Shown piece by piece: positions 16,833-38,868 of a DNA stretch of 64,000 nucleotides. Below the pieces are notes generated by a model, which was not told the DNA's origin, made no database searches, and saw nothing but the letters and a program-made list of their open reading frames with translations. The DNA is taken from positions 62,001 to 126,000 of the forward strand of contig JAFQBX010000018.1 in assembly GCA_017399535.1 (NCBI GenBank), written 5' to 3'. The stretch is from Clostridia bacterium. GTDB lineage: Bacteria > Bacillota > Clostridia > Oscillospirales > Acutalibacteraceae. The translations under genes were made by a program, and so were the position numbers. Position 1 is the first letter of the stretch. Every line of letters starts with the position of its first letter.

Positions 16833-17789
16833 TTATCTTTCTTCTCTAAAATACGGCAGACCGAGACTTTTTGGCGGCTGACTGTTTTTACTATCACGAG
16901 CGCTTGTAAATACAAGTACGATAATTGTTACGACATAAGGTAGCATTTCGAAAAGCTCCTTTGCGGCGAAGCTGATGCCTGTAATATAACTGCTGACAAT
17001 ATATAGAGCGCCAAAGAGAATTGAACCAATAATAGCCAAATTCGGCTTCCATACTGTAAAGATAACAAGTGCAATACACAACCAACCGATTGCGTCGATA
17101 CAATATTCCCAGTTACCGTTAAGATAGTCCATAATAAAGGACAAACCGCTTAAACCGGCAATCGCTGAGCCGATACAGGTTGCCGAATATCTATACAGCG
17201 AAACGTTAATCCCTGCGGCATCGGCAGCGGCAGGATCCTCGCCGACAGAGCGCAGGTTGAGACCGATACGTGTGTGATTAAGCACAAACGACGTCAAAAG
17301 AGCGATTATAATCGACAAATAAATTAATACGCCGTGGGAAAATAATATTTCACCAACAATACCTAATTCATCAGCAAAAGGCAACGGCTCAGTAAAATAA
17401 CGGCTACCTTTACTGTAAATCGGACCGGTTTCCGAAATCATATAATCAGAAACGCCTATACCAAATGTTGTCAAAGCGAGACCTGTAACATTCTGATTAG
17501 CGCGGAGTGAAACGGTTAAAAAGCTGAATATAAGTCCCATAAGCGCTCCACCTGCAAGTGTAGCAACAATAGGAATTAAAATCGCTAAAAAGGGCGAAGC
17601 GGTAATGCGCATTTCTCGCATTTGACTTAAATACAGATATTCAGCATAACAGCCACAAGAAGCTCCAACACACATTACACCGGGAATGCCGAGGTTAAGA
17701 TGACCTGATTTTTCAGTAATTGTTTCGCCTGTTGAACCAAACAAAAAGGTCATTCCAAGTCGAATTGCGCTTATAAGAAAGGCCAACAT
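16833..17789 (-). CDS. Nucleoside ABC transporter permease (YufQ/NupQ-like)
   Basis: 318-residue inner-membrane permease of the BPD_transp_2 family with about eight to nine helices. FLFGSTGETITEKSGHLNLGIPG at the start and the EAA-like loop VGEDPAAADAAGINVSLYR are standard for the second permease of BMP-dependent nucleoside transporters. It pairs with the permease encoded just upstream, whose stop overlaps its ATG by one base. Substrate is inferred as purine nucleosides from linkage with xpt. A short cytoplasmic tail ends GLPYFREER. Confidence 0.9.
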   Translation of the reverse strand: MLAFLISAIRLGMTFLFGSTGETITEKSGHLNLGIPGVMCVGASCGCYAEYLYLSQMREMRITASPFLAILIPIVATLAGGALMGLIFSFLTVSLRANQNVTGLALTTFGIGVSDYMISETGPIYSKGSRYFTEPLPFADELGIVGEILFSHGVLIYLSIIIALLTSFVLNHTRIGLNLRSVGEDPAAADAAGINVSLYRYSATCIGSAIAGLSGLSFIMDYLNGNWEYCIDAIGWLCIALVIFTVWKPNLAIIGSILFGALYIVSSYITGISFAAKELFEMLPYVVTIIVLVFTSARDSKNSQPPKSLGLPYFREER

Positions 17790-18853
17790 TAGTTATTCTC
17801 CTTTCTGCTTTTTGAAGCAACAATTTTGTACTGAAGGAAAAACTCACAACCAATAATAAAGAATAAAATGATTCCGGTTATAATATCAGAAATAGCATTT
17901 GGAAGTCTGAAATCGGTAGAAACCTGATTAGCTCCATTCTGCAAAAATACGATTAAGAATGAAGTAAAAATCATAAACACGGGATTGAACTTTGCAAGCC
18001 ATGATACCATGATTGCAGTAAATCCACGTCCGTCAACGGTAGTTGTGCTGATGGTGTGGTTTGTACCGCCGACAAGTAAAAGTCCTGCAATACCACAAAT
18101 AGCGCCGGATACAACAAGTGTTCTGATAATGACCTTTTTTACGTTGATACCAATGTATTTTGCAGTGTTTTCACTTTCGCCGACGACAGAAATTTCGTAG
18201 CCCTGCTTAGTTCTCTTTAAATAAATATAAACAAGCACTGTTAAAACGGCTACGGTAATAATATTCAGAATGTACGAGTGTCCAATAACAGGCAATCCGT
18301 ACTCCTCCATCGGTGTTAAAACGCCCGAACCGTTTTTTACAAAATATTTAAGGAAAAATGCAACCAGCTGAATGGCAACATAGTTCATCATTAGTGTAAA
18401 GAGCGTTTCGTTAGTATTCCAGATTGCTTTAAAAATAGCGGGTATAACCGCCCAAATAATTCCAGCCGCAACCGATGCAATTATCATTACAACAACGAGA
18501 ACAGGATAAGGCAGTTTATCTCCCAAAAACATCATAACCGAAACGTTAGCCAATCCGCCAACGAGAACCTGTCCTTCTGCTCCACAGTTCCAAAATCGCA
18601 TTTTAAAAGCAGGGGTCACGGCTAACGAAATACATAGCAAGATGGCTACATTCTGAGCCAAGCTCCACATACGAAGCTCTGAACCAAAAGCTCCGTTAAT
18701 CATTGAGGCATAAATCTTCAACGGATTTGTGCTGGTTAATAGTGTTATAACAACCGCGGATAAGAGAAGAGATGCGATAATAGCAACCGCCCTAACGAGC
18801 ATACTTTTAAGCCACGGCATTGGTTCCCTTTTTACAATATGTAAACCAAACAT
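17789..18853 (-). CDS. Nucleoside ABC transporter permease (YufP/NupP-like)
   Basis: 354-residue BPD_transp_2 permease, slightly longer at the N-terminus than its partner, with about ten hydrophobic helices. The coupling-helix region VGESENTAKYIGINVKKVIIR and the following GAICGIAGLLLVGGTNHTI are typical of BMP-type nucleoside importers. It lies 5 bases after the ATPase gene. Together with the 318-residue permease it forms the heterodimeric channel. Confidence 0.9.
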   Translation of the reverse strand: MFGLHIVKREPMPWLKSMLVRAVAIIASLLLSAVVITLLTSTNPLKIYASMINGAFGSELRMWSLAQNVAILLCISLAVTPAFKMRFWNCGAEGQVLVGGLANVSVMMFLGDKLPYPVLVVVMIIASVAAGIIWAVIPAIFKAIWNTNETLFTLMMNYVAIQLVAFFLKYFVKNGSGVLTPMEEYGLPVIGHSYILNIITVAVLTVLVYIYLKRTKQGYEISVVGESENTAKYIGINVKKVIIRTLVVSGAICGIAGLLLVGGTNHTISTTTVDGRGFTAIMVSWLAKFNPVFMIFTSFLIVFLQNGANQVSTDFRLPNAISDIITGIILFFIIGCEFFLQYKIVASKSRKENN

Positions 18854-18858
18854 TTTTA

Positions 18859-20403
18859 TTATTCGCTCTCCTTTCCTTCATTAGAAACCGTCTTTGTCAT
18901 AAGCAATCCGATTTCTTCCTTTGTTGTGTTTCTGGCATCGACAACACCGGTAATAGAACCCGAGCCGATAACGAGAATTCTATCGCAAAGCTCAATCAAA
19001 ACGTCAAGGTCCTCGCCGACAAATATAACGGCAACTCCCTTTTTCTTTTGAGAATTGAGCAAATTATAAATGGTGTACGATGCGCCGATATCGAGTCCTC
19101 TAACAGGATATGCAGCCATAAGTACCGTCGGTGCCGATGCAATTTCGCGCCCGACGAGAATCTTTTGAATATTGCCGCCTGAAAGACGTCTTACGGGTGT
19201 ATTTTCGTTAGGTGTGACAACCTCTAAATCCTCAATAATATGCAGCGCCAAATCCTTTGGTTGCTTTCTCTCGAGGAAAAGCGACTTTCCTTTATGGTAG
19301 CTACGGAGCATCATATTATCAACAATATCCATATTACCGACGAGACCCATTCCAAGTCGGTCCTCCGGCACAAACGAAAGACGAACACCTAAATCACGAA
19401 TTTGAAGCGGTGTTTTATCCCTTAAATTGTCGCATGAATGAGTCTTTGGATTGTTATAAAGAATCTCTCCATCGTTAATATGCTGAAGTCCGGCAATCGC
19501 TTCAAGAAGCTCGCGCTGACCGGAACCTGCAATACCTGCGATACCAAGGATTTCACCCGAACGAGCAACGAACGAAATATCGTTGAGAATTTTTTTACCT
19601 TCGCGATTAACGCAATTGAGTCCGTTTACAACCAATCTGTGCTCGCAATTTTCAGGTTCGCTTCTTTCAATATTTAATGAGATTTTTTTACCAACCATCA
19701 TCTCGGTAAGCTCTGATTCATTAGTTTTTGCCGTTTCAACAGTGCCAACATATTCACCCTTGCGGAGAACTGCAACCTTGTCCGACAATGAAAGTACCTC
19801 ATGTAGCTTATGTGTGATTATGATAATCGATTTGCCATCTTCCTTCATTCTTCTGATGATGGCAAATAATTTCTGGGTTTCCTGAGGAGTTAATACGGCA
19901 GTAGGTTCGTCGAGAATGAGAATATCTGCTCCGCGATATAATACCTTGATAATTTCAACCGTCTGCTTTTCAGAAACGGACATTTCATGGATTTTCTTCA
20001 TCGGGTCGATGTCAAATCCGTATTTATCGCTGATTTCCTTTACACGCATCGCTGCGGCTTTGAGATTATATCTGCCCTTTTCATTTAAGCCGAGAATAAT
20101 GTTTTCAGTAGCCGAAAATACATCAATGAGCTTAAAATGCTGATGAATCATACCGATTCCGTATTTAAAAGCATCCTTAGGTGAACGGATAGCAACCTCT
20201 TCGCCATTTATGAAAATTTGACCTTCATCGGGAAAATAAATTCCCGAAATCATATTCATCAGAGTAGTCTTTCCGCTTCCGTTTTCGCCTAAAATGGAAA
20301 GAATCTCTCCGCGGTTGACAGTAAGGTTAACATTCTTGTTAGCCATATTGCCACCAAAGGATTTTGAAATATTTTTAAGTTCAATTGCGACGTTATTATT
20401 CAA
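18859..20403 (-). CDS. Nucleoside ABC transporter ATPase, double ABC domain (YufO/NupO-like)
   Basis: 514-residue fused tandem ATPase. The first domain has an intact Walker A GENGSGKTT (about 39-47), VSEKQTVEI near the signature and DEPTAVLTP as Walker B. The second has the degenerate GIAGSGQRELLEAIAG and AAYPVRGLDIGA usual for this family, so one of the two ATP sites is probably inactive as in sugar and nucleoside importers. The start is TTG at 20403 with SD GGGGGA 7 bases ahead. It is separated from the binding-protein gene by 119 bases containing a stable hairpin. Confidence 0.92.
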   Translation of the reverse strand: MNNNVAIELKNISKSFGGNMANKNVNLTVNRGEILSILGENGSGKTTLMNMISGIYFPDEGQIFINGEEVAIRSPKDAFKYGIGMIHQHFKLIDVFSATENIILGLNEKGRYNLKAAAMRVKEISDKYGFDIDPMKKIHEMSVSEKQTVEIIKVLYRGADILILDEPTAVLTPQETQKLFAIIRRMKEDGKSIIIITHKLHEVLSLSDKVAVLRKGEYVGTVETAKTNESELTEMMVGKKISLNIERSEPENCEHRLVVNGLNCVNREGKKILNDISFVARSGEILGIAGIAGSGQRELLEAIAGLQHINDGEILYNNPKTHSCDNLRDKTPLQIRDLGVRLSFVPEDRLGMGLVGNMDIVDNMMLRSYHKGKSLFLERKQPKDLALHIIEDLEVVTPNENTPVRRLSGGNIQKILVGREIASAPTVLMAAYPVRGLDIGASYTIYNLLNSQKKKGVAVIFVGEDLDVLIELCDRILVIGSGSITGVVDARNTTKEEIGLLMTKTVSNEGKESE

Positions 20404-20484
20404 TTCGTATTCCCCCTTAAACCCTTAAAAAATCACCTTCTATGATGCTCAAAAGATAATTTTTTAATTGCTTAAATAAGTTTA

Positions 20485-20511
20485 GGCGGGACAGTATTAT
20501 CCTGTCCCGCC
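20485..20511 (-). other. Intercistronic hairpin between binding protein and ATPase genes
   Basis: Perfect 10-bp GC-rich stem GGCGGGACAG/CTGTCCCGCC with a 7-base loop, 12 bases after the BMP stop, but followed by TAAACTT rather than a T-run. It looks like an mRNA 3-prime stabiliser or processing barrier that would raise binding-protein message over the membrane components, not a full terminator. Confidence 0.7.
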
Positions 20512-20522
20512 ATTAAAGTTAC

Positions 20523-21797
20523 TTAAAATTCCTGGTTGAGAAGTGTGATTCCGTCAATTCTAAGATCGAAGCAAGGAGCTGAACGATATTCAGATTCGTG
20601 GAAATAGCCATCAGCGATAACTTCTGTATCACCAGTGAAGGCAGCGTCGGTGTCAACGTCTGCGAGGTAGGTAGTTACTTCCTTACCTTCAACGGTGAAG
20701 TTCTTTGTATCAAATACCTTGATGGTGCCGTTCTTGATATCTTCAACTGCCTTCTTGATAGCGTCGAAGGTGCCCTTTGCAGCAACATCCTGGTTGATAC
20801 CGGTGAGAACTACAGAACCTTCTGCGATACCGCCGCACCAGTCAGCAGCAATCTTTTCGCCCTTAACATAGCTACCGATAATGTAGTTGTAGTAAGGAGC
20901 CCAGTTGATAGCAGAAGAAATGATGAATGTTTCGTAACATGAATCGTATGTGCTTCCGTTGTAAGAAACGTTAGGAACGCCGGCCTTTTCACAAGCGCCG
21001 GGAGCACCCATTGAGTCAGCGTGCTGGCTGATGAGCTTGCAGTCTCTTGCAATGAGAGCTTCTGCTGCGTTCTTTTCCTTCGGAGCGTCATACCATGAAC
21101 CTGTAAACTGAACGTCCATTGTTACGGTCGGGCAAACTGACTTTGCGCCGAGGTAGAATGAGGTGTAACCTGACATAACTTCGGCATAGGTAAATGCGCC
21201 AACATAACCAATCTTAGCTTCGGCAGCGGTGAATTCGCCGTTTTCGATCATTTCGTTGAGCTTCATACCTGCTGCAACACCTGCGAGGTAACGACCTTCG
21301 TAGATAGAAGCAAATGCATTGTGGTAGTTGTCAAGTTTTTCGGTGTGTGCCTTTGTACCTGTGGCGTGGCAGAATTCAACATCAGGGAATTCCTTTGCTG
21401 CCTTGATCATAAAGTCTTCATGACCGAAATAGTTAGCAAAGATAATGTTACAACCTGTGTCAACGAGGTCCTTAGCAGCAACGTAGCATTCGTCACCTTC
21501 GGGAACGTTTGTCTTAATAACAACCTGATCGTTAGAAAGCTTTAAAGTCTTCTGAATGGTCTTAACTGCGTTGATAAAGTTAAGGTCGTAGGTTGAGTTT
21601 TCATCGTGCAAGCAGATGAAACCAATCTTGAAGTTACTGGGAATTTCGTAATCAACGGTTAATTCAACTTCATCAATCGGTGATTTGCTCATTCCGAGTT
21701 CGGTAGGAGCATCTGTTTTGTTCGGATCGCCGCTACATCCAACAAGCGCTCCAAGAACAAGAAGTACTGAGAGAACAAGTGCTAAAATCTTTTTCAT
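20523..21797 (-). CDS. BMP-family nucleoside-binding lipoprotein
   Basis: 424-residue extracellular substrate-binding lipoprotein. The signal MKKILALVLSVLLVLGALVGC ends in a lipobox with Cys21, followed by a Ser/Gly/Asp linker. The Bmp fold shows FKIGFICLHDENSTYD, IFANYFGHEDFMIKAAKEFP, ATGTKAHTEKL, GVAAGMKLNEM and SQHADSMGAPGACEK. Relatives bind purine nucleosides; linkage to xpt points to guanosine, inosine or xanthosine (inference). Codon use is skewed to preferred codons, as expected for an abundant protein. SD AGGAGG is optimal. Confidence 0.92.
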   Translation of the reverse strand: MKKILALVLSVLLVLGALVGCSGDPNKTDAPTELGMSKSPIDEVELTVDYEIPSNFKIGFICLHDENSTYDLNFINAVKTIQKTLKLSNDQVVIKTNVPEGDECYVAAKDLVDTGCNIIFANYFGHEDFMIKAAKEFPDVEFCHATGTKAHTEKLDNYHNAFASIYEGRYLAGVAAGMKLNEMIENGEFTAAEAKIGYVGAFTYAEVMSGYTSFYLGAKSVCPTVTMDVQFTGSWYDAPKEKNAAEALIARDCKLISQHADSMGAPGACEKAGVPNVSYNGSTYDSCYETFIISSAINWAPYYNYIIGSYVKGEKIAADWCGGIAEGSVVLTGINQDVAAKGTFDAIKKAVEDIKNGTIKVFDTKNFTVEGKEVTTYLADVDTDAAFTGDTEVIADGYFHESEYRSAPCFDLRIDGITLLNQEF

Positions 21798-21860
21798 TGT
21801 TTTTTTGCCTCCTAAAATTTATATTTTTAAAATTATTAAACGGCTTAACGCCAATTTAAA

Positions 21861-22433
21861 CTAACAAAACTCTACACCGTCTTCAAGTGTCATTGATTTA
21901 ATTTTTGCAAGGGATTCAACGCGAATTCCCATATCGCGAACAATATTACCGCCATTTTGGTATGCCTTTTCAATCAAAATTCCAGCACCAACAGTCTTTG
22001 CTCCGGCGTTTTCAATCAAGCTGATCAGTCCTAACAAGGCACTTCCCTTTGCAAGAAAATCGTCGATAATCAAAATTCGTTCATCTTGTTTTAAAAACTG
22101 TTTTGAAACAACGATATCGTATGTAACGCCATGAGTGTAGGATTCAACCTTACCCTTGTAAACATCGGAATAAATATTATTCGTCTTAGTCTTTTTTGCA
22201 AATACAACAGGTACGTTAAAATACTGAGCAGTAATACAAGCAACACCGATTCCTGATGCTTCAATAGTCAGTATTTTATCAATTTTTTCATCCTTAAAAA
22301 GACGAAAAAACTCCTTTCCAACTTCATTCATAAAATTAACGTCAATTTGATGATTGACAAAGCTGTCAACCTTTAAAACGTTGCCTTCGCCAATCTTTCC
22401 GTCTTTTATAATTCTGTCTTCAAGAAGTTTCAT
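21861..22433 (-). CDS. xpt: Xanthine phosphoribosyltransferase
   Basis: 190-residue purine PRTase. MKLLEDRIIKDGKIGEGNVLKVDSF is the Xpt N-terminus, EASGIGVACITAQYF the substrate loop, and ILIIDDFLAKGSALL the PRPP-binding loop. It turns xanthine (and less well guanine) into the nucleotide, completing salvage of bases or nucleosides brought in by the adjacent ABC system. In Bacillus xpt is under a guanine riboswitch; here the sigma-A promoter lies about 40 bases from the start and leaves no room for one. Probably co-transcribed with the transporter, 63 bases downstream. Confidence 0.93.
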   Translation of the reverse strand: MKLLEDRIIKDGKIGEGNVLKVDSFVNHQIDVNFMNEVGKEFFRLFKDEKIDKILTIEASGIGVACITAQYFNVPVVFAKKTKTNNIYSDVYKGKVESYTHGVTYDIVVSKQFLKQDERILIIDDFLAKGSALLGLISLIENAGAKTVGAGILIEKAYQNGGNIVRDMGIRVESLAKIKSMTLEDGVEFC

Positions 22434-23713: not shown

Positions 23714-23740
23714 AAAAGGTTGCGAAAAGCAACCTTTTTT
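23712..23740. terminator. Bidirectional terminator between small membrane gene and gtrA-like gene
   Basis: AAAAAAGGTTGC, loop GAAAA, GCAACCTTTTTT. Works for both convergent genes and overlaps the stop codons of both. Confidence 0.88.
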
Positions 23741-24209
23741 ATTTGAATATAAGCAATTTTTTGCTCAGATAATTCCATACGACTACAAGTAAGGTCGCAC
23801 TAATTTTTCCGAGCGAGTCGGATTCAAGGAAAAGTGAATTAAAGCGCGACAAATCAAGCATCTCGAAAAGATACATGAACACTCCGGTAAATATAACGGT
23901 TAAAATCAATCCTATTACACTTGAAAGGGCAAATAAAATAAGCGCCTTTGCACCTTTTCCATTCTCTCGCTGATAATCCGCATTGAAAACAAAAATAAGC
24001 AGCAAAAAATAATTTACAATAACACCAACAGTATAGCCAATTATATTAGCAACCGTAGTTAAAACCGTATGGTCGCCACCATCCTGGGCAAAAATTATTC
24101 TATTAAAAATCAAAAAAGTAATATAGTCGATTGCGAAAGAGACTAAACCGACAATAACAAACTTTACGGTTTCGATAAATATACTTTTACACTTATCTGA
24201 TACTACCAA
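23739..24209 (-). CDS. GtrA-family membrane protein
   Basis: 156-residue GtrA-like protein with four helices (FVIVGLVSFAIDYITFLIF, IIGYTVGVIVNYFLLLIFVF, ALILFALSSVIGLILTVIF and a last one near 130-150 ending YLSKKLLIF). Family members help flip or anchor polyprenyl-linked sugars for cell-surface glycosylation. The start is TTG at 24209 with GGGAGATG ahead inside the PHP gene end. It is the last gene of the sensory-hydrogenase operon, one base after the PHP stop; whether it is functionally part of that system is unclear. Confidence 0.8.
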   Translation of the reverse strand: MVVSDKCKSIFIETVKFVIVGLVSFAIDYITFLIFNRIIFAQDGGDHTVLTTVANIIGYTVGVIVNYFLLLIFVFNADYQRENGKGAKALILFALSSVIGLILTVIFTGVFMYLFEMLDLSRFNSLFLESDSLGKISATLLVVVWNYLSKKLLIFK

Positions 24210-24210
24210 G

Positions 24211-24906
24211 TTAACATCTCCCGTTACTCAAATACTCAATAAGACAACTTGCGGTATTTTCTTCTAATTCAATAAACCGCTCTTTTTCTAAAATATTCTC
24301 TAAATAATGTGCGTCCGAATTCGTAATCGAAGGATAATCGTAATTATCAGGATTACCAGACCTGCTAACCTCAATAAAGTCAAAGTTGCATTCCTCAACA
24401 ATTTCACCAAGCACGGCAATAATGCTGTACGAATCCCGATTCACGTGCGCAGGCAAAGCAACCCCACCGAATGAATTAACAATTTTCTTTACATCCATTA
24501 CGCTAATATCGCACGAACTGATAAGAAGCATGTCCACCTCGTCGATAATTTCGTCATTTTCGTCCATTACGTATTGATGACCGAAAATATCGGCCTCGTT
24601 TGGAATCTTCATAAGCCGCTCATATACATAACCGTCAAACGCCTCAGCCGATTCCAAATCAGGAAACAGACAAACAACGTGAATATCCTCCGACGTCGTA
24701 AGCTCCATTCCCGGAACAACAGTAACACCTACCTCGTTGCCAACCTTAATGGCAGCCGAGCAGTTTTTACAACTATTGTGATCGGTGATTGCAATAATAT
24801 CAAGCTCATTGAGCTTCGCCATATTCACAATGTTATTAGGCGTCATATCATTATCGCCGCACGGACTTAGCGAAGAATGAATGTGTAAATCGTAATATAA
24901 CCTCAT
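24211..24906 (-). CDS. PHP-domain phosphoesterase
   Basis: 231-residue PHP protein. Metal-binding motifs DLHIHSSLSPCG (6-17), AITDHNSC and GMELTT, plus PAHVNRD and NSDAHYLEN, make the trinuclear-metal site complete. Relatives cleave phosphodiesters or phosphomonoesters, including 3',5'-nucleotide bisphosphates. Its start overlaps the DRTGG gene by 4 bases, in an operon with a hydrogenase homologue and an anti-sigma-type ATPase, which suggests a signalling nucleotide or phosphate-ester substrate, but the true substrate is unknown. Confidence 0.85.
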   Translation of the reverse strand: MRLYYDLHIHSSLSPCGDNDMTPNNIVNMAKLNELDIIAITDHNSCKNCSAAIKVGNEVGVTVVPGMELTTSEDIHVVCLFPDLESAEAFDGYVYERLMKIPNEADIFGHQYVMDENDEIIDEVDMLLISSCDISVMDVKKIVNSFGGVALPAHVNRDSYSIIAVLGEIVEECNFDFIEVSRSGNPDNYDYPSITNSDAHYLENILEKERFIELEENTASCLIEYLSNGRC

Positions 24907-25244
24907 TTTATCAATTTGTCAATATCCACGCATAATTCAAATTGTGGAATATCGGTTTGAATAACGGGTATATCATGCTCATTTGCCTTTATTTTAGCGT
25001 CATCGTCAAGTAACGAATTTTCAGCCAAAACTATGCAGGAAATATCGGCCAGTACAGCTACCGCAACAGCATTTACGTTACCCATTACAGTAACCCAAGC
25101 CGAATTTTCACCAGCTCGTCCCATTACCCAGCTCAAAAGGTCGCCGCAATAACCGCATTCAACTATGTTATCAAGTCCGCCTTCGCCTGCGAGTAATTTG
25201 GCTCCGAGCGCTTCTTTTAATTCTCTGACTGTCAAACTATTCAC
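24903..25244 (-). CDS. DRTGG-domain protein (second copy)
   Basis: 113 residues forming a single DRTGG domain, a fold otherwise found beside CBS domains and in phosphotransacetylase and HPr-kinase N-termini. Seen: LTVRELKEALGAKLLAGEGGL, CGYCGDLLSWVMGRAGENSA, VTVMGNVNAVAVAVLADISC and NEHDIPVIQTD. GTG start at 25244 overlaps the hydrogenase stop by 8 bases. A paralogue lies at the start of the operon (27005-27352); the two share a plan but are diverged. Function unknown; ligand sensing is a reasonable guess. Confidence 0.8.
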   Translation of the reverse strand: MNSLTVRELKEALGAKLLAGEGGLDNIVECGYCGDLLSWVMGRAGENSAWVTVMGNVNAVAVAVLADISCIVLAENSLLDDDAKIKANEHDIPVIQTDIPQFELCVDIDKLIK

Positions 25245-26562
25245 ATTCCTTTAAATCATTATTATCTGCTCGATTGTCGCCCAAATTCATGCCCAAAAGA
25301 GACATCTGCTTTGCAAAATGCTGAACCTGGTCACGCATGATGAAAACGCAATCATTTTCATTAGAATAACCGAGCGCAACGTCTTCGGCAAAGGTTTTGC
25401 AGCTCGGAGAACCGCAAGCACCGCAATCGAGTCCGGGTAATTTCTTTTCAATGCCGTCAATTTTTTGCATTATAGCCAATGCTTCAAAGAGATTGTCCGA
25501 CAGCTTCATACCCTCAACCGCATTCAAGGTTGCGCCAAACAGCATATCCTTTGGAACATCATCAGTTTCCAGATGATTCATTGATACCGGTAAATATTTT
25601 CGTAAAATTTGGGTTCGTGCCTTTGCCATAAAAGGATTCTTTACAGTAAGAATTCCGCCGACACAACCGGCATCACAAGCCCTAAGTTCAACAAAATGCA
25701 AACGTTTAAATTTCTTTTCCTCAATTTCTTCGAGGACGTTCATAACGTTTTCGATTCCACCGGCTGACAAATAATGCGATGACATAAGTGCGGCAGATTC
25801 GCCGCCGTCAATAGCCCAGCTAACGCCAATCAGCCCCGAATTAGCAATGGCATCCACCTTATCAAGCTTTTCCATTGTTGCAACTAGCTGATGGTACACC
25901 TCACAAATACCGATTACACCATCAATACCTGTTTCGCAGTCTATAATAGGATTTTTCGCTTCTGTGACCTCGGAAGTACAAGGAGATATGTAAAACACAC
26001 CGATTTTTTCAGCATCAAGCCCTGTTTTGTTTACGGCTTCCTCCCTAGCCATTTTTGCCGCAATATGCATGGGAGATTTTATGGGCAAAACGTGGCTGCA
26101 CAAATCGGGAAATTTAAGCTGAATAAGCTTCACCACCGTGGGACAAGCAGAGGAAATTACGGGATATTCATAAGCGCTGGAATTCATATATTTACGGGTT
26201 GCTTCCGAAATAAGCTCAGCTGCACGTGACGTTTCAAAAACGTCGTCGAAACCTATTTTTTTAAAAGCAGTCATTACGTAATCAAGATCCTCTAAATTAC
26301 GAATTTGTCCGAATATGGTTGGAGATAATAAAGCAATCTTGTACTCGTAGCCCTCAGTAACATTGAGGTGGTCATAAACCGCCCTCATCGCGTGGGATGG
26401 GCATACTCTGATACATTCGCCACAATCAATACAAAGCTCCTTTAACACCTTTGCCTTTCCTGCACGAATACGAATAGCCCCCGTAGGACAGCGTTTTATA
26501 CAGTTAATGCATCCTGTACATTTATCAGAATCAAGTCGAACCGCATGGAACATCTTTTCCAT
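25237..26562 (-). CDS. Putative sensory [FeFe]-hydrogenase homologue (group C-like)
   Basis: 441 residues: two N-terminal [4Fe-4S] motifs (Cys15-18-21-25 and 44-47-50-54), an H-cluster domain, and a C-terminal 4Cys Fe-S motif (Cys380, 383, 388, 405; GLDCGACGSPSCKTFAED). The four cluster-ligand cysteines appear kept (Cys140, 195, 296, 300), but L1 reads SSACP, with Ala139 where catalytic enzymes have the proton-shuttling Cys; L2 reads SPCTSEVTEAK in place of MPCxxKxxE and L3 is ELRACDAGCVGG. Established knowledge: this Ala replacement marks sensory group C enzymes such as HydS. No PAS domain is fused; signalling may use the neighbouring ATPase and DRTGG proteins. No small accessory subunit domain follows. 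Confidence 0.85.
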   Translation of the reverse strand: MEKMFHAVRLDSDKCTGCINCIKRCPTGAIRIRAGKAKVLKELCIDCGECIRVCPSHAMRAVYDHLNVTEGYEYKIALLSPTIFGQIRNLEDLDYVMTAFKKIGFDDVFETSRAAELISEATRKYMNSSAYEYPVISSACPTVVKLIQLKFPDLCSHVLPIKSPMHIAAKMAREEAVNKTGLDAEKIGVFYISPCTSEVTEAKNPIIDCETGIDGVIGICEVYHQLVATMEKLDKVDAIANSGLIGVSWAIDGGESAALMSSHYLSAGGIENVMNVLEEIEEKKFKRLHFVELRACDAGCVGGILTVKNPFMAKARTQILRKYLPVSMNHLETDDVPKDMLFGATLNAVEGMKLSDNLFEALAIMQKIDGIEKKLPGLDCGACGSPSCKTFAEDVALGYSNENDCVFIMRDQVQHFAKQMSLLGMNLGDNRADNNDLKECE

Positions 26563-26579
26563 AACAACAGCTCCTTAAA

Positions 26580-27005
26580 TTAAGTAAAATTCACCTTCAT
26601 ATATACCGTTGTGCCGACACCGATCTCTGTATCAATTTTCATATCGTCGGTGTATTTTTTTATGTTAGGCAAACCCATTCCTGCGCCGAAACCGAGCGCT
26701 CTGATATGGTCCCTCGCAGTAGAATAACCTTCCTGCATAGCAAGATCAATATCCTTTATCCCGGGGCCTTTATCTTTAAGCCAGATTTCGATACAGGTTG
26801 GAGAAATTTCGGCTTCGATTACCCCACCGTTTGCGTGAATAACCATGTTAATTTCGCCCTCATAAACAGCAATCGAAACTCGGCGAACAATTTCCATATC
26901 AATACCAAGCTTTTTAAGCGTTCTCTTTATAGCGCCGGAGGCCTCTCCTGCATGAGTAAAATCGTCAGACGATACGTCGTATGTAAGTTTTACCGCTTCG
27001 CTCAT
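26580..27005 (-). CDS. RsbW-like serine/histidine kinase-type ATPase
   Basis: 141-residue GHKL ATPase resembling anti-sigma-factor kinases. N-box VSIAVYEGEINMVIHANG, G1 box DKGPGIKDID and G2 box GFGAGMGLPNIKKY are all present, and there is no dimerisation/phosphoacceptor domain. ATG at 27005 (MSEAVKL) is chosen over one nine bases upstream because AAGGAGG sits 9 bases ahead; it overlaps the stop of the first DRTGG gene as ATGA. Probably transduces the state of the hydrogenase-like protein by phosphorylation or protein binding; partner not visible here. Confidence 0.85.
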   Translation of the reverse strand: MSEAVKLTYDVSSDDFTHAGEASGAIKRTLKKLGIDMEIVRRVSIAVYEGEINMVIHANGGVIEAEISPTCIEIWLKDKGPGIKDIDLAMQEGYSTARDHIRALGFGAGMGLPNIKKYTDDMKIDTEIGVGTTVYMKVNFT

Positions 27006-27352
27006 CAACCGCATCCTCCTTTTAGACCGTTCTGGTATAAAAGTCCGCAGGCGGTAAACATTCTATGCGGTGTGGTCATTAAAACAATACCTCTATCCTT
27101 AGCTAGAGCAACGATAGTTTCGTCCGGCTGTTTTCCGCGAACAAAAACAACGCAAGGCATATCCATCATTTCGGCAGTTCTGACAACCTGAGGATTAACA
27201 AGTCCTGTCAAAAGCACCGACTGATCCTTTACATAAGCGAGAACGTCGCTCATCATGTCAGAGCCACAAGCCGAATTGATTTCGGTATCAATAAGATTTT
27301 CGCAGCAGATGCATTCAGCATCTAATATTTTTTGAACGTCAGAAACAAGCAT
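27005..27352 (-). CDS. DRTGG-domain protein (first copy)
   Basis: 115 residues with ILDAECICCENLIDTEINSA, GSDMMSDVLAYVKDQSVLLTG, MDMPCVVFVRGKQPDET and ALAKDRGIVLMTT, a stand-alone DRTGG domain. It is cysteine-rich near both ends (ECICC; YQNGLKGGCG), which could allow metal or redox sensing (inference). First gene of the operon, with a sigma-A promoter and SD GGAGG. Confidence 0.8.
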   Translation of the reverse strand: MLVSDVQKILDAECICCENLIDTEINSACGSDMMSDVLAYVKDQSVLLTGLVNPQVVRTAEMMDMPCVVFVRGKQPDETIVALAKDRGIVLMTTPHRMFTACGLLYQNGLKGGCG

Positions 27353-27380
27353 GATAAAACCTCCAAACCTAATTTATCAT

Positions 27381-27409
27381 ATTATATCACCAAATTCCAC
27401 CATATTCAA
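27381..27409 (-). promoter_or_regulatory. Sigma-A promoter of the sensory-hydrogenase operon
   Basis: TTGAAT (27409-27404), 17 bases, TATAAT (27386-27381) on the minus strand. The spacer holds CACCA twice on the plus strand (27388-27392 and 27398-27402), ten bases apart, one helical turn, a possible regulator site. Confidence 0.78.
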
Positions 27410-33537: not shown

Positions 33538-33586
33538 ACTTTTTACTACTTTTTTATATATTATAGTAGATTTTTTGAAACGAGTA

Positions 33587-33595
33587 TGTTATAAT
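33587..33595 (+). promoter_or_regulatory. Extended -10 promoter of the hydrogenase operon
   Basis: TGTTATAAT is a perfect extended -10 element; the -35 region 17 bases upstream (TAGATT, 33567-33572) is poor. Such promoters often need an activator or rely on the TGn contact. Predicted start near 33602 gives a leader of about 125 bases. Confidence 0.6.
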
Positions 33596-33601
33596 ATTAA
33601 C

Positions 33602-33710
33602 AATTATATCGGTATGGATATGTTTTCGGGCAAATCCATGCCTGTATTTTAGCGTTTGGATATCAAATGCGGCATTAAATTTTGTATAATTTAAGTCGAT
33701 TTTCGACTGG
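33602..33710 (+). ncRNA. Structured 5' leader of the hnd hydrogenase operon (candidate cis-regulatory RNA)
   Basis: Three hairpins in series: GGTATGGAT (33611-33619) with ATCCATGCC (33634-33642), 9 pairs; GCGTTTG (33652-33658) with CAAATGC (33664-33670), 7 pairs; AGTCGA (33694-33699) with TCGACT (33703-33708), 6 pairs, ending 2 bases before the ribosome site region. I do not recognise a described riboswitch class. Structure by eye only. Confidence 0.4.
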
Positions 33711-33726
33711 AAAGGCAAGGAATTAT

Positions 33727-34221
33727 ATGTTAAAGAAAATCAGTTCGCTGCCGTTTAACGGCACGCCTGAGCAAGAGGCACAGCTTGTCAAATTCATTGA
33801 CGGTATTCGCACTCAGCAGGGTTGCTTGATGCCTATCATGCAGGAAGCACAGTCAATCTATGGCTACCTTCCCCTCGAGGTTCAGCAAATCATTGCCAGA
33901 GAGCTCGAAATCTCCGTTGAAGAAGTTTACGGCATTTCTACCTTCTATGCTCAGTTCGCTCTCTCACCGAAAGGCAAATACAATATTTCTGTTTGTCTCG
34001 GTACCGCTTGCTACGTAAAAGGTGCGCAGGCGCTTGTTGACAGAATCACTCAAATCCTTGGTATCGGCCCTGACGAATGCACTGCTGACGGAATGTTCTC
34101 ACTCGAAGCTTGCCGTTGCATCGGTGCTTGCGGTCTGGCTCCCGTACTCACCGTTAACGACGATGTTTACGGCCGTCTTGTCGAAAAGGACGTTGACGAT
34201 ATTATCAAAAAGTATCAATAA
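33727..34221 (+). CDS. hndA: NAD(P)-linked hydrogenase subunit A (NuoE-like)
   Basis: 164-residue thioredoxin-like [2Fe-2S] protein of the NuoE/HndA family, an electron carrier between the flavin subunit and the hydrogenase. The four cluster cysteines are in CLGTAC and EACRCIGACGLAP. The N-terminal helical bundle (PEQEAQLVKFIDGI, GYLPLEVQQIIAREL, VYGISTFYAQF) is typical. ATG at 33727 (MLKKISS) is preferred over an upstream ATG at 33682 because AAGGCAAGGA precedes it and the upstream part has no family similarity. Confidence 0.92.
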   Translation: MLKKISSLPFNGTPEQEAQLVKFIDGIRTQQGCLMPIMQEAQSIYGYLPLEVQQIIARELEISVEEVYGISTFYAQFALSPKGKYNISVCLGTACYVKGAQALVDRITQILGIGPDECTADGMFSLEACRCIGACGLAPVLTVNDDVYGRLVEKDVDDIIKKYQ

Positions 34222-34252
34222 TCAATTTGGCAATTTAAAGGACTGATTATCA

Positions 34253-34795
34253 ATGCGCGAATTATCCCTTAATGTTCTCGATATTGTCCAAAATTCAATT
34301 ACAGCAAATGCAAACCTTATCGAAATAGAATTGATTGAAGAAATAAACAACGATATTCTCAAAATCAATATTTTCGATAACGGAAAAGGTATGACCGACG
34401 AACAAATAAAAAGTGTCACCGACCCTTTTTATACAACACGTACAACTCGCAAAATCGGACTCGGCATTCCCCTCTTCAAAATGGCGGCAGAAATGTCGGG
34501 CGGCTCCTTTAAAATCGTGTCAACCGTCGGCGTCGGAACAAAAATTTATACCAGCTATATTCATTCTAGCATTGACAGAATGCCTGTCGGTAACATTAAC
34601 GAAACGGTTTCGATGCTGATTCGAATGAATCCTGATATTGATTTTGTTTACACACATACCTTTAATGAAAAAAGCTATTCCCTCGACACTCGTGAATTAC
34701 GCGAACAGCTCGAGGACGTACCGCTCGACACTCCCGAAGTAATTGACTGGATAAACGAATATTTAACGGAAAACGATTCAATGATTACAGTCTGA
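34253..34795 (+). CDS. Orphan GHKL ATPase within the hydrogenase operon
   Basis: 180 residues. Histidine-kinase-type ATPase domain only: N-box LDIVQNSITANA, G1 FDNGKGMTD, F-box-like DPFYTTRTTRK and G2 IGLGIPLFKMAAEMSGG, with an unassigned C-terminal 70 residues rich in acidic residues. No sensor, dimerisation or phosphoacceptor His domain. The gene regularly sits between hndA and hndB in clostridial hydrogenase operons, so it probably regulates hydrogenase activity or expression, but the mechanism is not established. Confidence 0.85.
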   Translation: MRELSLNVLDIVQNSITANANLIEIELIEEINNDILKINIFDNGKGMTDEQIKSVTDPFYTTRTTRKIGLGIPLFKMAAEMSGGSFKIVSTVGVGTKIYTSYIHSSIDRMPVGNINETVSMLIRMNPDIDFVYTHTFNEKSYSLDTRELREQLEDVPLDTPEVIDWINEYLTENDSMITV

Positions 34796-34831
34796 TTCAC
34801 TTAATAATAATTCAGAAACGGAGGATAAAAA

Positions 34832-35203
34832 ATGAAATCTCTTGCTGAACTTAAAGCTATAAAGGAAAAGGCACAAGCTGAATTGGCAGCTCGTGAGAAT
34901 AGTGTTGACGGAACACGCGTTCTCGTTGGTATGGCTACCTGCGGTATCGCCGCCGGCGCTCGTCCCATTCTCACAAAGTTCGTTGACGAAATCACCAGAA
35001 GAGGTATCGCCAACGTAAAGGTAACCCAGACAGGTTGTATCGGCATCTGCCAGTACGAGCCGGTTGTTGAGGTTATTTTGCCCGGACAGGAAAAGGTTAC
35101 ATACGTTAAAATGACCGAAGATAAGGTTGACAGAATCATCACCGAACATATCGTTAACGGCAAGGTTGTTGACGAATACACAATCGGTAACTGCAAGTTA
35201 TAA
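34832..35203 (+). CDS. hndB: NAD(P)-linked hydrogenase subunit B, [2Fe-2S] thioredoxin-like
   Basis: 123-residue thioredoxin-like ferredoxin. MATCGIAAGARPI and TQTGCIGICQYEP carry the four cysteines of a [2Fe-2S] cluster. Preceded by a helical N-terminus (SLAELKAIKEKAQAELAARE). In HndABCD it forms part of the electron-transfer arm that separates the flavin site from the hydrogenase. Strong SD GGAGGA. Confidence 0.9.
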   Translation: MKSLAELKAIKEKAQAELAARENSVDGTRVLVGMATCGIAAGARPILTKFVDEITRRGIANVKVTQTGCIGICQYEPVVEVILPGQEKVTYVKMTEDKVDRIITEHIVNGKVVDEYTIGNCKL

Positions 35204-35292
35204 TTCAGTTAAATAAACATCAATCGATTTACCATGCAAAACCGATTGAGATTAAAAAAATATGATAACTGCATGGAGAAATGGTGGAAATA

Positions 35293-37107
35293 ATGTATCG
35301 TTCACAGGTTCTCATTTGCGGCGGTACCGGATGTACATCATCAAACAGCCAGAAAATTATCGATGCGATGGAAGTTGCTCTCGATAAAGCCGGTCTTAGC
35401 GAAGAAGTAAAGGTTGTTAAAACCGGTTGTTTCGGTCTTTGTGCATTAGGTCCGATCGTAATTGTATATCCCGAAGGTTGTTTTTACAGCCGTGTTGAAG
35501 TTGATGATGTTGACGAAATCGTTAATGAGCATCTTCTCAAAGGTCGTATTGTTAAGCGCTTAATTTACAATGAAACACTCGACGTCGAAAATGACACAAT
35601 TAAGTCACTTAACGAGACCGCATTCTATAAGACACAGCAGCGTATCGCTTTGCGTAACTGCGGTGTTATCAATCCCGAAAATATTGAAGAATATATTGCA
35701 AACGACGGTTACGCAGCTCTCGGTAAGGTTGTAACCGAAATGAAGCCCGAAGAGGTTATTCAGATCATCCTCGATTCAGGTCTCCGCGGTCGTGGCGGCG
35801 CCGGCTTCCCCACCGGTCTCAAATGGAAATTTGCTGCCGGAAATGACGCAGACCAGAAATACGTTTGCTGTAACGCCGACGAAGGTGACCCCGGTGCATT
35901 CATGGACCGTTCAATACTCGAAGGTGACCCCCACGCTCTTATCGAAGCTATGGCAATCGCAGGTTATGCTATCGGTGCTACTCAGGGCTACGTTTACGTA
36001 CGTGCTGAATACCCGATTGCTGTAAATCGTCTCCAAATTGCCATCGACCAGGCACGTGAATACGGTCTCCTCGGTAACAATATCTTTGATACTGATTTCA
36101 GTTTCGACCTCGGCATCCGTCTCGGCGCAGGTGCATTCGTTTGCGGTGAAGAAACTGCACTCATGACATCTATCGAAGGTAAGCGCGGTGAACCGCGTCC
36201 CCGTCCTCCGTTCCCTGCTGTAAAGGGACTTTTCGGCAAGCCGACCGTACTTAACAACGTTGAAACATACGCAAATATTCCTCAGATTATCCTCAAAGGT
36301 TCTGATTGGTTCAATTCAATCGGTACCGAAAAGTCAAAGGGTACTAAGGTATTTGCTCTCGGTGGTAAGATTGAGCACACAGGACTCGTTGAAGTTCCGA
36401 TGGGAACCACTCTCCGTCAGATTGTCGAGGATATCGGCGGCGGTATTCCTAACGGCAAAAAGTTCAAGGCAGCTCAGACAGGTGGACCTTCCGGCGGATG
36501 TATCCCGGCAAGTCTCATGGACGTTGAAATCGACTACGATAACCTCCTTGCTATCGGCTCGATGATGGGTTCAGGCGGACTTATCGTTATGGACGAAGAT
36601 ACCTGTATGGTTGACATCGCTAAGTTCTTCCTTGAATTTACCGTTGACGAATCATGCGGTAAGTGTACTCCCTGCCGTATCGGTACCAGAAGAATGCTTG
36701 AAATTCTCGACAAGATTACCGAAGGTAAGGCAACAATGGAAGACCTTGATAAACTTGAAGCTCTCTGCGATTATATCAAGGAAAATTCACTTTGCGGTCT
36801 CGGACAGACTGCTCCTAACCCGGTAATTTCCACATTAAAGTACTTCCGCGACGAATATATCGCTCACATCGTTGACAAGAAGTGTCCTGCCGGTGCTTGT
36901 AAGAACCTTCTGAATTACAGCATCGTCAAGGATAAGTGCTTCGGTTGCGGAATGTGCGCTAAGCAGTGTCCTGCTGATGCAATCATGGTTACCGACTATA
37001 TCGCACCCGGTAAGAAGCTCGCCGCTTACGAAATTGATACAGAAAAGTGTATCAAGTGTGGCGCTTGTGTTGCTTCGTGTAAATTTAAGGCCATTATTAA
37101 GGAATAA
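35293..37107 (+). CDS. hndC: NAD(P)-linked hydrogenase flavin subunit (NuoF-like, HndC)
   Basis: 604 residues in four parts: an N-terminal thioredoxin-like [2Fe-2S] domain (GGTGCTSSNS, KTGCFGLCALGP), the NuoF FMN/NAD(P)H domain (GRGGAGFPTGLKW, CNADEGDPGAFMDR, GAGAYVC-like GAGAFVCGEETA), the NuoF [4Fe-4S] motif SCGKCTPCRIG, and a C-terminal two-cluster ferredoxin (CFGCGMCAKQCPADAI, CIKCGACVASCKFKAI). It exchanges electrons with NAD(P)H and is the presumed bifurcating flavin site. ATG at 35293 has GGTGG ahead. Highly biased, preferred codons suggest strong expression. Confidence 0.95.
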   Translation: MYRSQVLICGGTGCTSSNSQKIIDAMEVALDKAGLSEEVKVVKTGCFGLCALGPIVIVYPEGCFYSRVEVDDVDEIVNEHLLKGRIVKRLIYNETLDVENDTIKSLNETAFYKTQQRIALRNCGVINPENIEEYIANDGYAALGKVVTEMKPEEVIQIILDSGLRGRGGAGFPTGLKWKFAAGNDADQKYVCCNADEGDPGAFMDRSILEGDPHALIEAMAIAGYAIGATQGYVYVRAEYPIAVNRLQIAIDQAREYGLLGNNIFDTDFSFDLGIRLGAGAFVCGEETALMTSIEGKRGEPRPRPPFPAVKGLFGKPTVLNNVETYANIPQIILKGSDWFNSIGTEKSKGTKVFALGGKIEHTGLVEVPMGTTLRQIVEDIGGGIPNGKKFKAAQTGGPSGGCIPASLMDVEIDYDNLLAIGSMMGSGGLIVMDEDTCMVDIAKFFLEFTVDESCGKCTPCRIGTRRMLEILDKITEGKATMEDLDKLEALCDYIKENSLCGLGQTAPNPVISTLKYFRDEYIAHIVDKKCPAGACKNLLNYSIVKDKCFGCGMCAKQCPADAIMVTDYIAPGKKLAAYEIDTEKCIKCGACVASCKFKAIIKE

Positions 37108-37125
37108 GAAAGGAGTGTGCCAATA

Positions 37126-38868
37126 ATGGAAAATGTTAATATTACAATAAACGGCATGCCCCTTAGCGTGCCTGCAAATTACACAATTCTCGAAGCTGCC
37201 AGACTCGCAGGAATCGAGATTCCTACCCTCTGTCACATGAAGGGTAAAAACGAAATCGGCGCTTGCCGTATTTGTGTTGTTGAAGTTGAAAGAGCTCGTT
37301 CACTCGTTGCTGCTTGCGTAATGCCCGTATCGGAAGGAATGGTTATCAAAACCAATTCTCCGAAGGTTATGCAGTCGAGAAAAATGACCGTTGAGCTTCT
37401 CCTTTCAAACCACAACAGAAGCTGCTTACAGTGTGTACGTAGCGGAAACTGCGAACTTCAGACACTCGCTTATGAATTCGGTGTAGAAGATGCCGGTTGC
37501 TTCGACGGAGTAAAAACTGAATCTGTTGAAGATAAATCGGCTGCTCACCTCATTCGTGACAATTCAAAGTGTATTCTTTGCCGCAGATGTGTTGCCGCAT
37601 GTAAGACACAGACTGCAGTTATCGGAGCTAACAACCGCGGATTTGACTCTGCAATCGGTTCTTGCTTCAATATGGACCTCAACGACGTTGCATGTATCTC
37701 ATGCGGTCAGTGTATCAATGTCTGCCCGACAGGCGCTCTCAGAGAAAGAGACGACACTCAAAAGGTATTTGACGCTATCAACGACCCGACAAAGCACGTT
37801 GTAATCCAGACCGCTCCTGCTGTTCGTGCCGCTCTCGGCGAAGAATTCGGCATGGAAATCGGTACAAACGTTGAAGGTAAAATGGTTGCCGCCCTCCGTA
37901 GACTCGGCTTTGATAAGGTATTCGATACCGACTTTGCTGCCGACCTTACAATTATGGAAGAAGCTACCGAATTCCTCGACAGAGTTCAGAATGGTGGCAC
38001 ATTACCGCTTATCACATCCTGCTCACCCGGCTGGATCAGATACTGTGAACAGTTCTATCCCGACATGATTGACAACCTTTCATCATGCAAGTCACCTCAG
38101 CAGATGTTCGGCGCAGTTATCAAAACATACTACGCAGAAAAGAACGGCATTGACCCGAAGGATATCTTCTCGGTATCGGTTATGCCCTGTACCGCTAAAA
38201 AGTACGAAATCGCAAGAGATGATCAGTCAGCAGCAGGCGTTCCTGACCTCGATGCTACAATCACCACTCGTGAGCTTGCTCGTATGATTAAAAAGGCGCG
38301 CATCCAGTTTACAAAGCTTCCTGACGAAGAATATGATAATCCGCTCGGTGCTGATACCGGTGCAGCTGTCATCTTCGGTGTTACAGGCGGCGTTATGGAA
38401 GCTGCTCTCCGTACAGCTGTTGATACCCTCACAGGCAAGGACAATGAAAACTATGAATTCACCGAAGTTCGCGGTCTCGAAGGCGTTAAGGAAGCTACCT
38501 ACAACGTAAACGGACTCGAAGTTAACGTTGCAGTTGCCAGCGGCGCTGACAATGCAAAGAAGGTTCTCGACGCAGTTAAGAACGGCGAAAAGAACTATCA
38601 CTTCATCGAAATCATGGGTTGTCCCGGCGGATGTATCAATGGTGGCGGTCAGCCGATTCATACTCAGAGCGAATGGGCTACCATCGACATCAAGGCACTT
38701 CGTGCAAAGGCACTTTACGACCAGGATAAGTCAATGGCTATCAGAAAGTCTCATAAGAATCCGATGATCAAGACCATCTATGATGAGTACTTCGAAAAGC
38801 CCGGCAGCCACAAGGCACATAAGATTCTCCACACATCTTATAAAGCCCAGACAAACACAATAAAATAA
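37126..38868 (+). CDS. hndD: [FeFe]-hydrogenase catalytic subunit (HndD/HydA-like)
   Basis: 580 residues: N-terminal [2Fe-2S] domain (Cys36, 47, 50, 64), a NuoG-type Cys3His cluster region (NRSCLQCVRSGNCELQ), two [4Fe-4S] motifs (CILCRRCVAACK, CISCGQCINVCPTGAL), the H-cluster domain and a C-terminal small-subunit domain. L2 is MPCTAKK (Cys355) and L3 MGCPGGCINGGG (Cys499, Cys503). L1 reads TSCSPGW, Cys299 then Ser300, rather than TSCCPxW. It makes or oxidises H2 with HndABC. ATG at 37126 follows AAAGGAG; the upstream GTG at 37117 is too close to it. Confidence 0.95.
   Translation: MENVNITINGMPLSVPANYTILEAARLAGIEIPTLCHMKGKNEIGACRICVVEVERARSLVAACVMPVSEGMVIKTNSPKVMQSRKMTVELLLSNHNRSCLQCVRSGNCELQTLAYEFGVEDAGCFDGVKTESVEDKSAAHLIRDNSKCILCRRCVAACKTQTAVIGANNRGFDSAIGSCFNMDLNDVACISCGQCINVCPTGALRERDDTQKVFDAINDPTKHVVIQTAPAVRAALGEEFGMEIGTNVEGKMVAALRRLGFDKVFDTDFAADLTIMEEATEFLDRVQNGGTLPLITSCSPGWIRYCEQFYPDMIDNLSSCKSPQQMFGAVIKTYYAEKNGIDPKDIFSVSVMPCTAKKYEIARDDQSAAGVPDLDATITTRELARMIKKARIQFTKLPDEEYDNPLGADTGAAVIFGVTGGVMEAALRTAVDTLTGKDNENYEFTEVRGLEGVKEATYNVNGLEVNVAVASGADNAKKVLDAVKNGEKNYHFIEIMGCPGGCINGGGQPIHTQSEWATIDIKALRAKALYDQDKSMAIRKSHKNPMIKTIYDEYFEKPGSHKAHKILHTSYKAQTNTIK

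Follow-up and report, generated by a model that had tools for sequence, protein, structure and literature searches.

The window, the 64,000-nucleotide stretch of DNA analysed here, carries on its minus strand six closely spaced genes, for a DRTGG-domain protein (DRTGG1), a GHKL ATPase, a homologue of [FeFe]-hydrogenases (HydS), a second DRTGG protein (DRTGG2), a PHP phosphoesterase and a GtrA-family membrane protein, and on its plus strand a hydABC operon (Table 1). The six open reading frames listed in a preliminary description of this DNA are all present at the positions given there, and their Pfam families agree with it. Of the five gene junctions in the operon, three are overlaps (of 10, 8 and 4 bases) and two are gaps (of 17 bases and of 1 base), a spacing that suggests a common transcript for all six genes. 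The sigma-A-type promoter that had been proposed ahead of the operon was found as TTGAAT-17-TATAAT, and it is kept in every genus-level sequence aligned (n=6, including one apparently duplicate record of the same genome).

Table 1. Positions of the genes and sequence features within the window.
Feature	Positions	Strand	Basis
Promoter TTGAAT-17-TATAAT, 5' of DRTGG1	27381-27409	-	Match in sequence; conserved within genus
DRTGG1, 115 aa, first module gene	27005-27352	-	Pfam DRTGG, 30.7 bits (cut-off 25.2)
GHKL ATPase, 144 aa, RsbW/SpoIIAB-like	26580-27014	-	HATPase_c_2, 38.2 bits
HydS, 441 aa, group D-type [FeFe]-hydrogenase homologue	25237-26562	-	Fe_hyd_lg_C, 122.6 bits; Fer4 motifs; C-terminal PF04060
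HydS L2 motif S193-P-C-T-S-E198	25969-25986	-	Codon positions, checked in sequence
DRTGG2, 113 aa	24903-25244	-	Pfam DRTGG, 22.2 bits (just under cut-off 25.2)
PHP phosphoesterase, 231 aa	24211-24906	-	Pfam PHP, 35.1 bits
GtrA-family membrane protein	23739-24209	-	Pfam GtrA, 59.1 bits
hydABC operon	33682-38868	+	ORFs, Pfam
HydC, NuoE-like	33682-34221	+	ORF, Pfam
GHKL2	34253-34795	+	ORF, Pfam
Trx-like ferredoxin	34832-35203	+	ORF, Pfam
HydB	35281-37107	+	ORF, Pfam
HydA	37117-38868	+	ORF, Pfam; 742 bits vs HydA1 of 7q4v

HydS had first been described as a group C sensory hydrogenase with alanine in place of the proton-shuttle cysteine. The alanine is confirmed (A139 at C299 in CpI numbering, in which S193 and E198 correspond to M353 and K358); the group is not. 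In a tree of 41 rows, whose comparison groups are relatives classified by NCBIfam and Pfam and whose rows do not include TamHydS itself, the window HydS lies inside a clade of PAS-less HydS proteins with support 100/99, apart from groups A and B, as had been anticipated for a protein outside the catalytic groups, and apart from the PAS-bearing group C. TamHydS is the group D (M2e) [FeFe]-hydrogenase of Thermoanaerobacter mathranii (PMC8163306, PMC10407848, PMC13104023), and the marks of its group are the absence of a PAS domain, two N-terminal and one C-terminal Fe-S motif, a replaced C299, Ser or Thr at M353 and proton-path glutamates (PMC8163306, PMC10407848). By Pfam, the window HydS has no PAS domain, whereas the group C comparators do, and it has two N-terminal [4Fe-4S] motifs and a C-terminal Cx2Cx4Cx16C motif whose cysteines (C380, C383, C388 and C405) are kept in 200 of 200 relatives. 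Its E255 and E292 correspond to the proton-path residues E252 and E289 of TamHydS, all four H-cluster cysteines (C140, C195, C296 and C300) are in place, and every other Fe-S cysteine in the alignment is retained as well. The AlphaFold model (pLDDT 82) matches [FeFe]-hydrogenases of the PDB in Foldseek; a sequence search with HydS found no solved group D structure. On the tree and the sequence features tested we assign HydS to group D, with TamHydS itself compared by its published features. It shares with the group C sensory hydrogenases (TmHydS type) the replaced C299 and the C-terminal Fe-S motif and differs from them in lacking PAS and in its separate clade.

TamHydS carries an H-cluster and turns over H2, and it has already been proposed as an H2 sensor (PMC8163306). 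The window HydS differs from it by Glu at K358 and Gly at D265 (TamHydS numbering), and its genome by the absence of HydE, HydF and HydG, a divergent hydABC operon and an appended GtrA gene. Moreover, TamHydS was described with a flanking 'AraC regulator', whereas the window HydS is flanked by DRTGG proteins.

Among the 147 genomes of the order, 79 contain a HydS match at an E-value of at most 1e-30; 77 of these are close relatives, and the rest are distant PAS-type matches. The gene order DRTGG1-GHKL-HydS-DRTGG2-PHP was found at 20/20 HydS loci of a first set from the same taxonomic order as the window, at essentially all of 76 same-order loci wherever the contig was long enough, and at 80 loci from named records (e.g., Anaeromassilibacillus, Massiliimalia, Herbinix, Anaerocolumna and [Clostridium] citroniae). 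Of 20 loci sampled from further families of the phylum, most show the same gene order, and a few lack PHP, DRTGG1 or DRTGG2. The recurrence of the five-gene order at well over 100 loci is far above chance, and the linkage on which the preliminary description had relied is therefore not rare. Its six-gene unit shrinks to five: the GtrA gene follows PHP in congeners and at a 94%-identical locus (L145), was not seen in the other loci scanned, and is a genus-specific passenger rather than the component of the system it had been taken for.

Usually, the hydABC operon (NuoE-GHKL2-TrxFd-HydB-HydA) directly follows the module. In one set of loci hydC lies ahead of the module, which is thus nested inside the hydABC operon, and in another set hydABC is divergent; in the window it lies 6.3 kb from the module on the opposite strand. 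By conservation and neighbourhood we recognise the five-gene unit as a signalling module that recurs in many clostridia together with the electron-bifurcating hydrogenase. Near the module, 4 loci encode an 84-aa protein (L197:14614-14868) that we take to resemble the TM1266-type 'hydrogenase system regulator'.

HydA of the window, a product of the neighbouring operon and not of the sensor module, is like HydA1 of 7q4v, which is presumably the subunit of the electron-bifurcating HydABC of Acetobacterium woodii. The likeness includes the L1 motif TSCSPGW, which places Ser at the H-cluster ligand C300. We considered this serine as a sign of a lost H-cluster and ruled it out, since it is present in all 49 HydA sequences compared and in the solved bifurcating hydrogenase; in the alignment, the H-cluster pocket of HydA in the window genome is complete. 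A second GHKL ATPase, GHKL2, is consistently encoded within the hydABC operons of these genomes. Some 80 bases ahead of hydC lies a Rex-like palindrome with 2 mismatches (ATGTTATAATATTAACAA, 33586-33603). We rejected Rex as a regulator of the module promoter: there is no site at that promoter, the site ahead of hydC is weak, and the total of matches in the window is at the level of chance. Elsewhere in the window (16833-22433), an ABC transporter with lipoprotein and permeases adjoins a phosphoribosyltransferase gene and is possibly a purine/nucleoside uptake operon.

In DRTGG1, the motifs ACGxDxMSDVLA, TGLxNxQ, RTAxM, RxK and a second ACG are conserved to at least 95% across 75 loci, with two cysteines strictly conserved, and DRTGG2 matches the DRTGG1 family with 99.0% probability in a profile-to-profile comparison (hhalign). 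The metal-binding His/Asp/Glu set of PHP is complete, and H8, H10, D42, H43, E68, H76, H154, D198 and H200 are 99 to 100% conserved in 73 loci. The GHKL protein matches SpoIIAB (1til, E=1e-6) and has the ATP boxes and the N-box YEGEIN with E52 and N56; this N-box, DxGxG, R105 and GFGAGMG vary little or not at all across 76 loci. The conserved order and the retained ATPase and metal-site residues bear out the view that the hydrogenase homologue, which is of a non-catalytic type, is coupled to the GHKL, the two DRTGG and the PHP proteins as a real unit. The partner switch invoked for this unit fares less well. The GHKL protein has the family, the N-box Glu and Asn and the ATP boxes in common with the anti-sigma kinases SpoIIAB and RsbW, but it scores 58.2 bits against a cut-off of 135 for the SpoIIAB/RsbW equivalog, and the gene clusters most often found near the module include no recurrent sigma factor, STAS protein or PP2C. 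Gene linkage thus lends no support to a partner switch as such.

The lack of such recurrent neighbours would also fit HydS and its partners being accessory or assembly factors of HydABC, acting on its structure, cluster loading or activity rather than in signalling. So would the slow evolution of DRTGG1 and GHKL and the fact that many genomes have the module nested between hydC and hydB. However, many of the sampled genomes have an [FeFe]-hydrogenase but no close HydS, and therefore the module is not required for the hydrogenase in general. In addition, GHKL proteins of the RsbW/SpoIIAB-like subfamily are mostly regulatory kinases. We regard an accessory role as improbable.

We did not find HydE, HydF or HydG in the window genome, which is 93.6% complete. 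In a genus-wide search made with HydF alone, none of five genomes (three with a completeness of 93% or more) exceeded the cut-off, whereas all five contain HydS. The pattern extends through the order: PF02906 is matched in 143 of the 147 genomes and HydF is present in 74, with HydE and HydG distributed in nearly the same way. About 70 of the 143 genomes with a hydrogenase domain are thus without HydF, and so are 33 of the 77 with a close HydS; these 33 come from 13 families, and 12 are at least 95% complete. Genomes with a hydrogenase but no maturases have been noted in 'a few species' (PMC3226654); here they make up about half of an order. Apart from that one sentence, we found nothing specific in the openly accessible literature on hydrogenase genomes without HydEFG, or on DRTGG proteins together with a hydrogenase. 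Incomplete assembly cannot explain the near-complete genomes that lack all three maturases, but maturases divergent enough to fall below the limits of the searches are possible. We looked for a relaxed H-cluster pocket in the genomes without HydF and found none, the pockets of HydA and HydS being equally conserved with and without it. If HydE, HydF and HydG are truly missing, these intact pockets would imply an as yet undescribed way of making or acquiring the H-cluster. Some of the HydF-less genomes of the order also have a group B hydrogenase. In one genome that is 97% complete (G010, locus L082), HydE, HydF and HydG are all present, and HydS, accompanied by its module, is the only protein to match PF02906.

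The presence of the HydS operon in the 33 HydF-less genomes of the order raises the question of whether it substitutes for HydEFG as an alternative system of H-cluster maturation. In the sample of the phylum, 42 of 165 HydS genomes were without HydG, and the association between HydS and HydG is positive (odds ratio 3.8) and not inverse, and HydS as a substitute maturase was rejected on this ground; roughly half of the HydF-less hydrogenase genomes in the order sample also have no close HydS. We give this explanation next to no weight.

HydS itself has changed in the window genus. Among 200 other group D sequences, 199 have Lys at the position of K358, and the sole exception is the 94%-identical congener locus; within the genus the residue is Glu in the window HydS and Glu, Glu, Glu and Arg in four congeners. 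The surrounding L2 motif reads S/T-P-C-P-A-K in relatives and S-P-C-T-S-E in the window HydS. The K358 lysine holds a cyanide of the [2Fe] subcluster of the H-cluster. At D265 (TamHydS numbering), 197 of 200 group D sequences have Asp and the window HydS has Gly. This aspartate is a proposed proton-path residue of TamHydS (PMC10407848). Relative-rate tests of the window lineage against Anaeromassilibacillus sp. An250 with three outgroups gave 86 versus 38, 74 versus 39 and 74 versus 40 lineage-specific changes in HydS (p 2e-5 to 0.002), an approximately twofold rate on the window lineage; the same test found no acceleration in HydA and the four module partners. The lost lysine and the accelerated branch are what a decaying relic would show, but the dN/dS of HydS within the genus is 0.04-0.06. 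HydS is therefore under purifying selection and not decaying, and with an open reading frame that is intact in congeners and all Fe-S cysteines retained, we consider a relic highly improbable.

A further explanation is that HydS is a true H2 sensor like TamHydS, which would obtain its H-cluster by an unknown route, change its conformation upon binding H2 and act through the GHKL and DRTGG proteins on the regulation of HydABC. The position of HydS within the group D clade, the retained H-cluster cysteines and proton-path glutamates, the intact HydA pocket in genomes without HydF and the positive association with HydG in the phylum are all consistent with it, as are the H-cluster and H2 turnover of TamHydS (PMC8163306). 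Arguing against it are the missing HydEFG of the window genome, a loss of K358 that is limited to the window genus, and an acceleration confined to HydS within the operon. H2 sensing by HydS in this organism is therefore possible but doubtful. Unlikely too, in our estimate, is a combination in which HydEFG-less gut Clostridia build the H-cluster by an undescribed route while the HydS of the window genus has been converted, within the same module, to an Fe-S sensor free of the H-cluster.

The reading to which we give about even chances is that HydS of the window genus has been repurposed as an Fe-S or redox input to the GHKL/DRTGG/PHP module, which would tune HydABC. Across the wider family, HydS is a slow, PAS-less group D homologue that bears an H-cluster and is proposed to report H2 to its partners by a conformational change. 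From the absence of HydEFG and the replacement of the cyanide-binding lysine by Glu or Arg we infer that the [2Fe] half of the H-cluster is very probably missing from HydS in the window genus. The protein would retain as many as four [4Fe-4S] clusters (two at the N-terminus, one at the C-terminus and the cubane of the H-domain) and may use them to sense the redox state of the cell, i.e., the level of reduced ferredoxin. We hypothesize that the signal is handed by contact from HydS to the GHKL ATPase and the DRTGG proteins, that these tune the synthesis or activity of HydABC, and that PHP hydrolyzes a phosphorylated or nucleotide product. The preliminary description had HydS read H2 or the redox state and pass the signal on. 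The redox input and the relay are kept here as a proposal, and direct reading of H2 is doubtful in the window organism: because K358 is lost and the HydEFG genes are absent, HydS probably no longer does so.

Several points weigh against the redox reading. HydA of the same genome has a complete H-cluster pocket, which suggests that the H-cluster may still be obtained, and HydS itself keeps E255, E292 and all four H-cluster cysteines. The exchange of Lys for Glu might be tolerated. Moreover, at 93.6% completeness the absence of a single gene is weak evidence in itself, and the genus-wide check covers HydF only.

How a group D hydrogenase signals without a PAS domain was posed as an open question in the study of TamHydS (PMC8163306). 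The fixed five-gene neighbourhood supplies candidate partners for HydS, namely a GHKL ATPase, two DRTGG proteins and a PHP enzyme, and with these candidates the question becomes directly testable. The wide absence of HydEFG among genomes with a hydrogenase also bears on the extent to which H2 metabolism can be read from hydrogenase genes alone. A maturase-less genus with an altered lysine is a natural experiment, in which the role of HydS as an Fe-S protein or scaffold is separated from the binding of H2.
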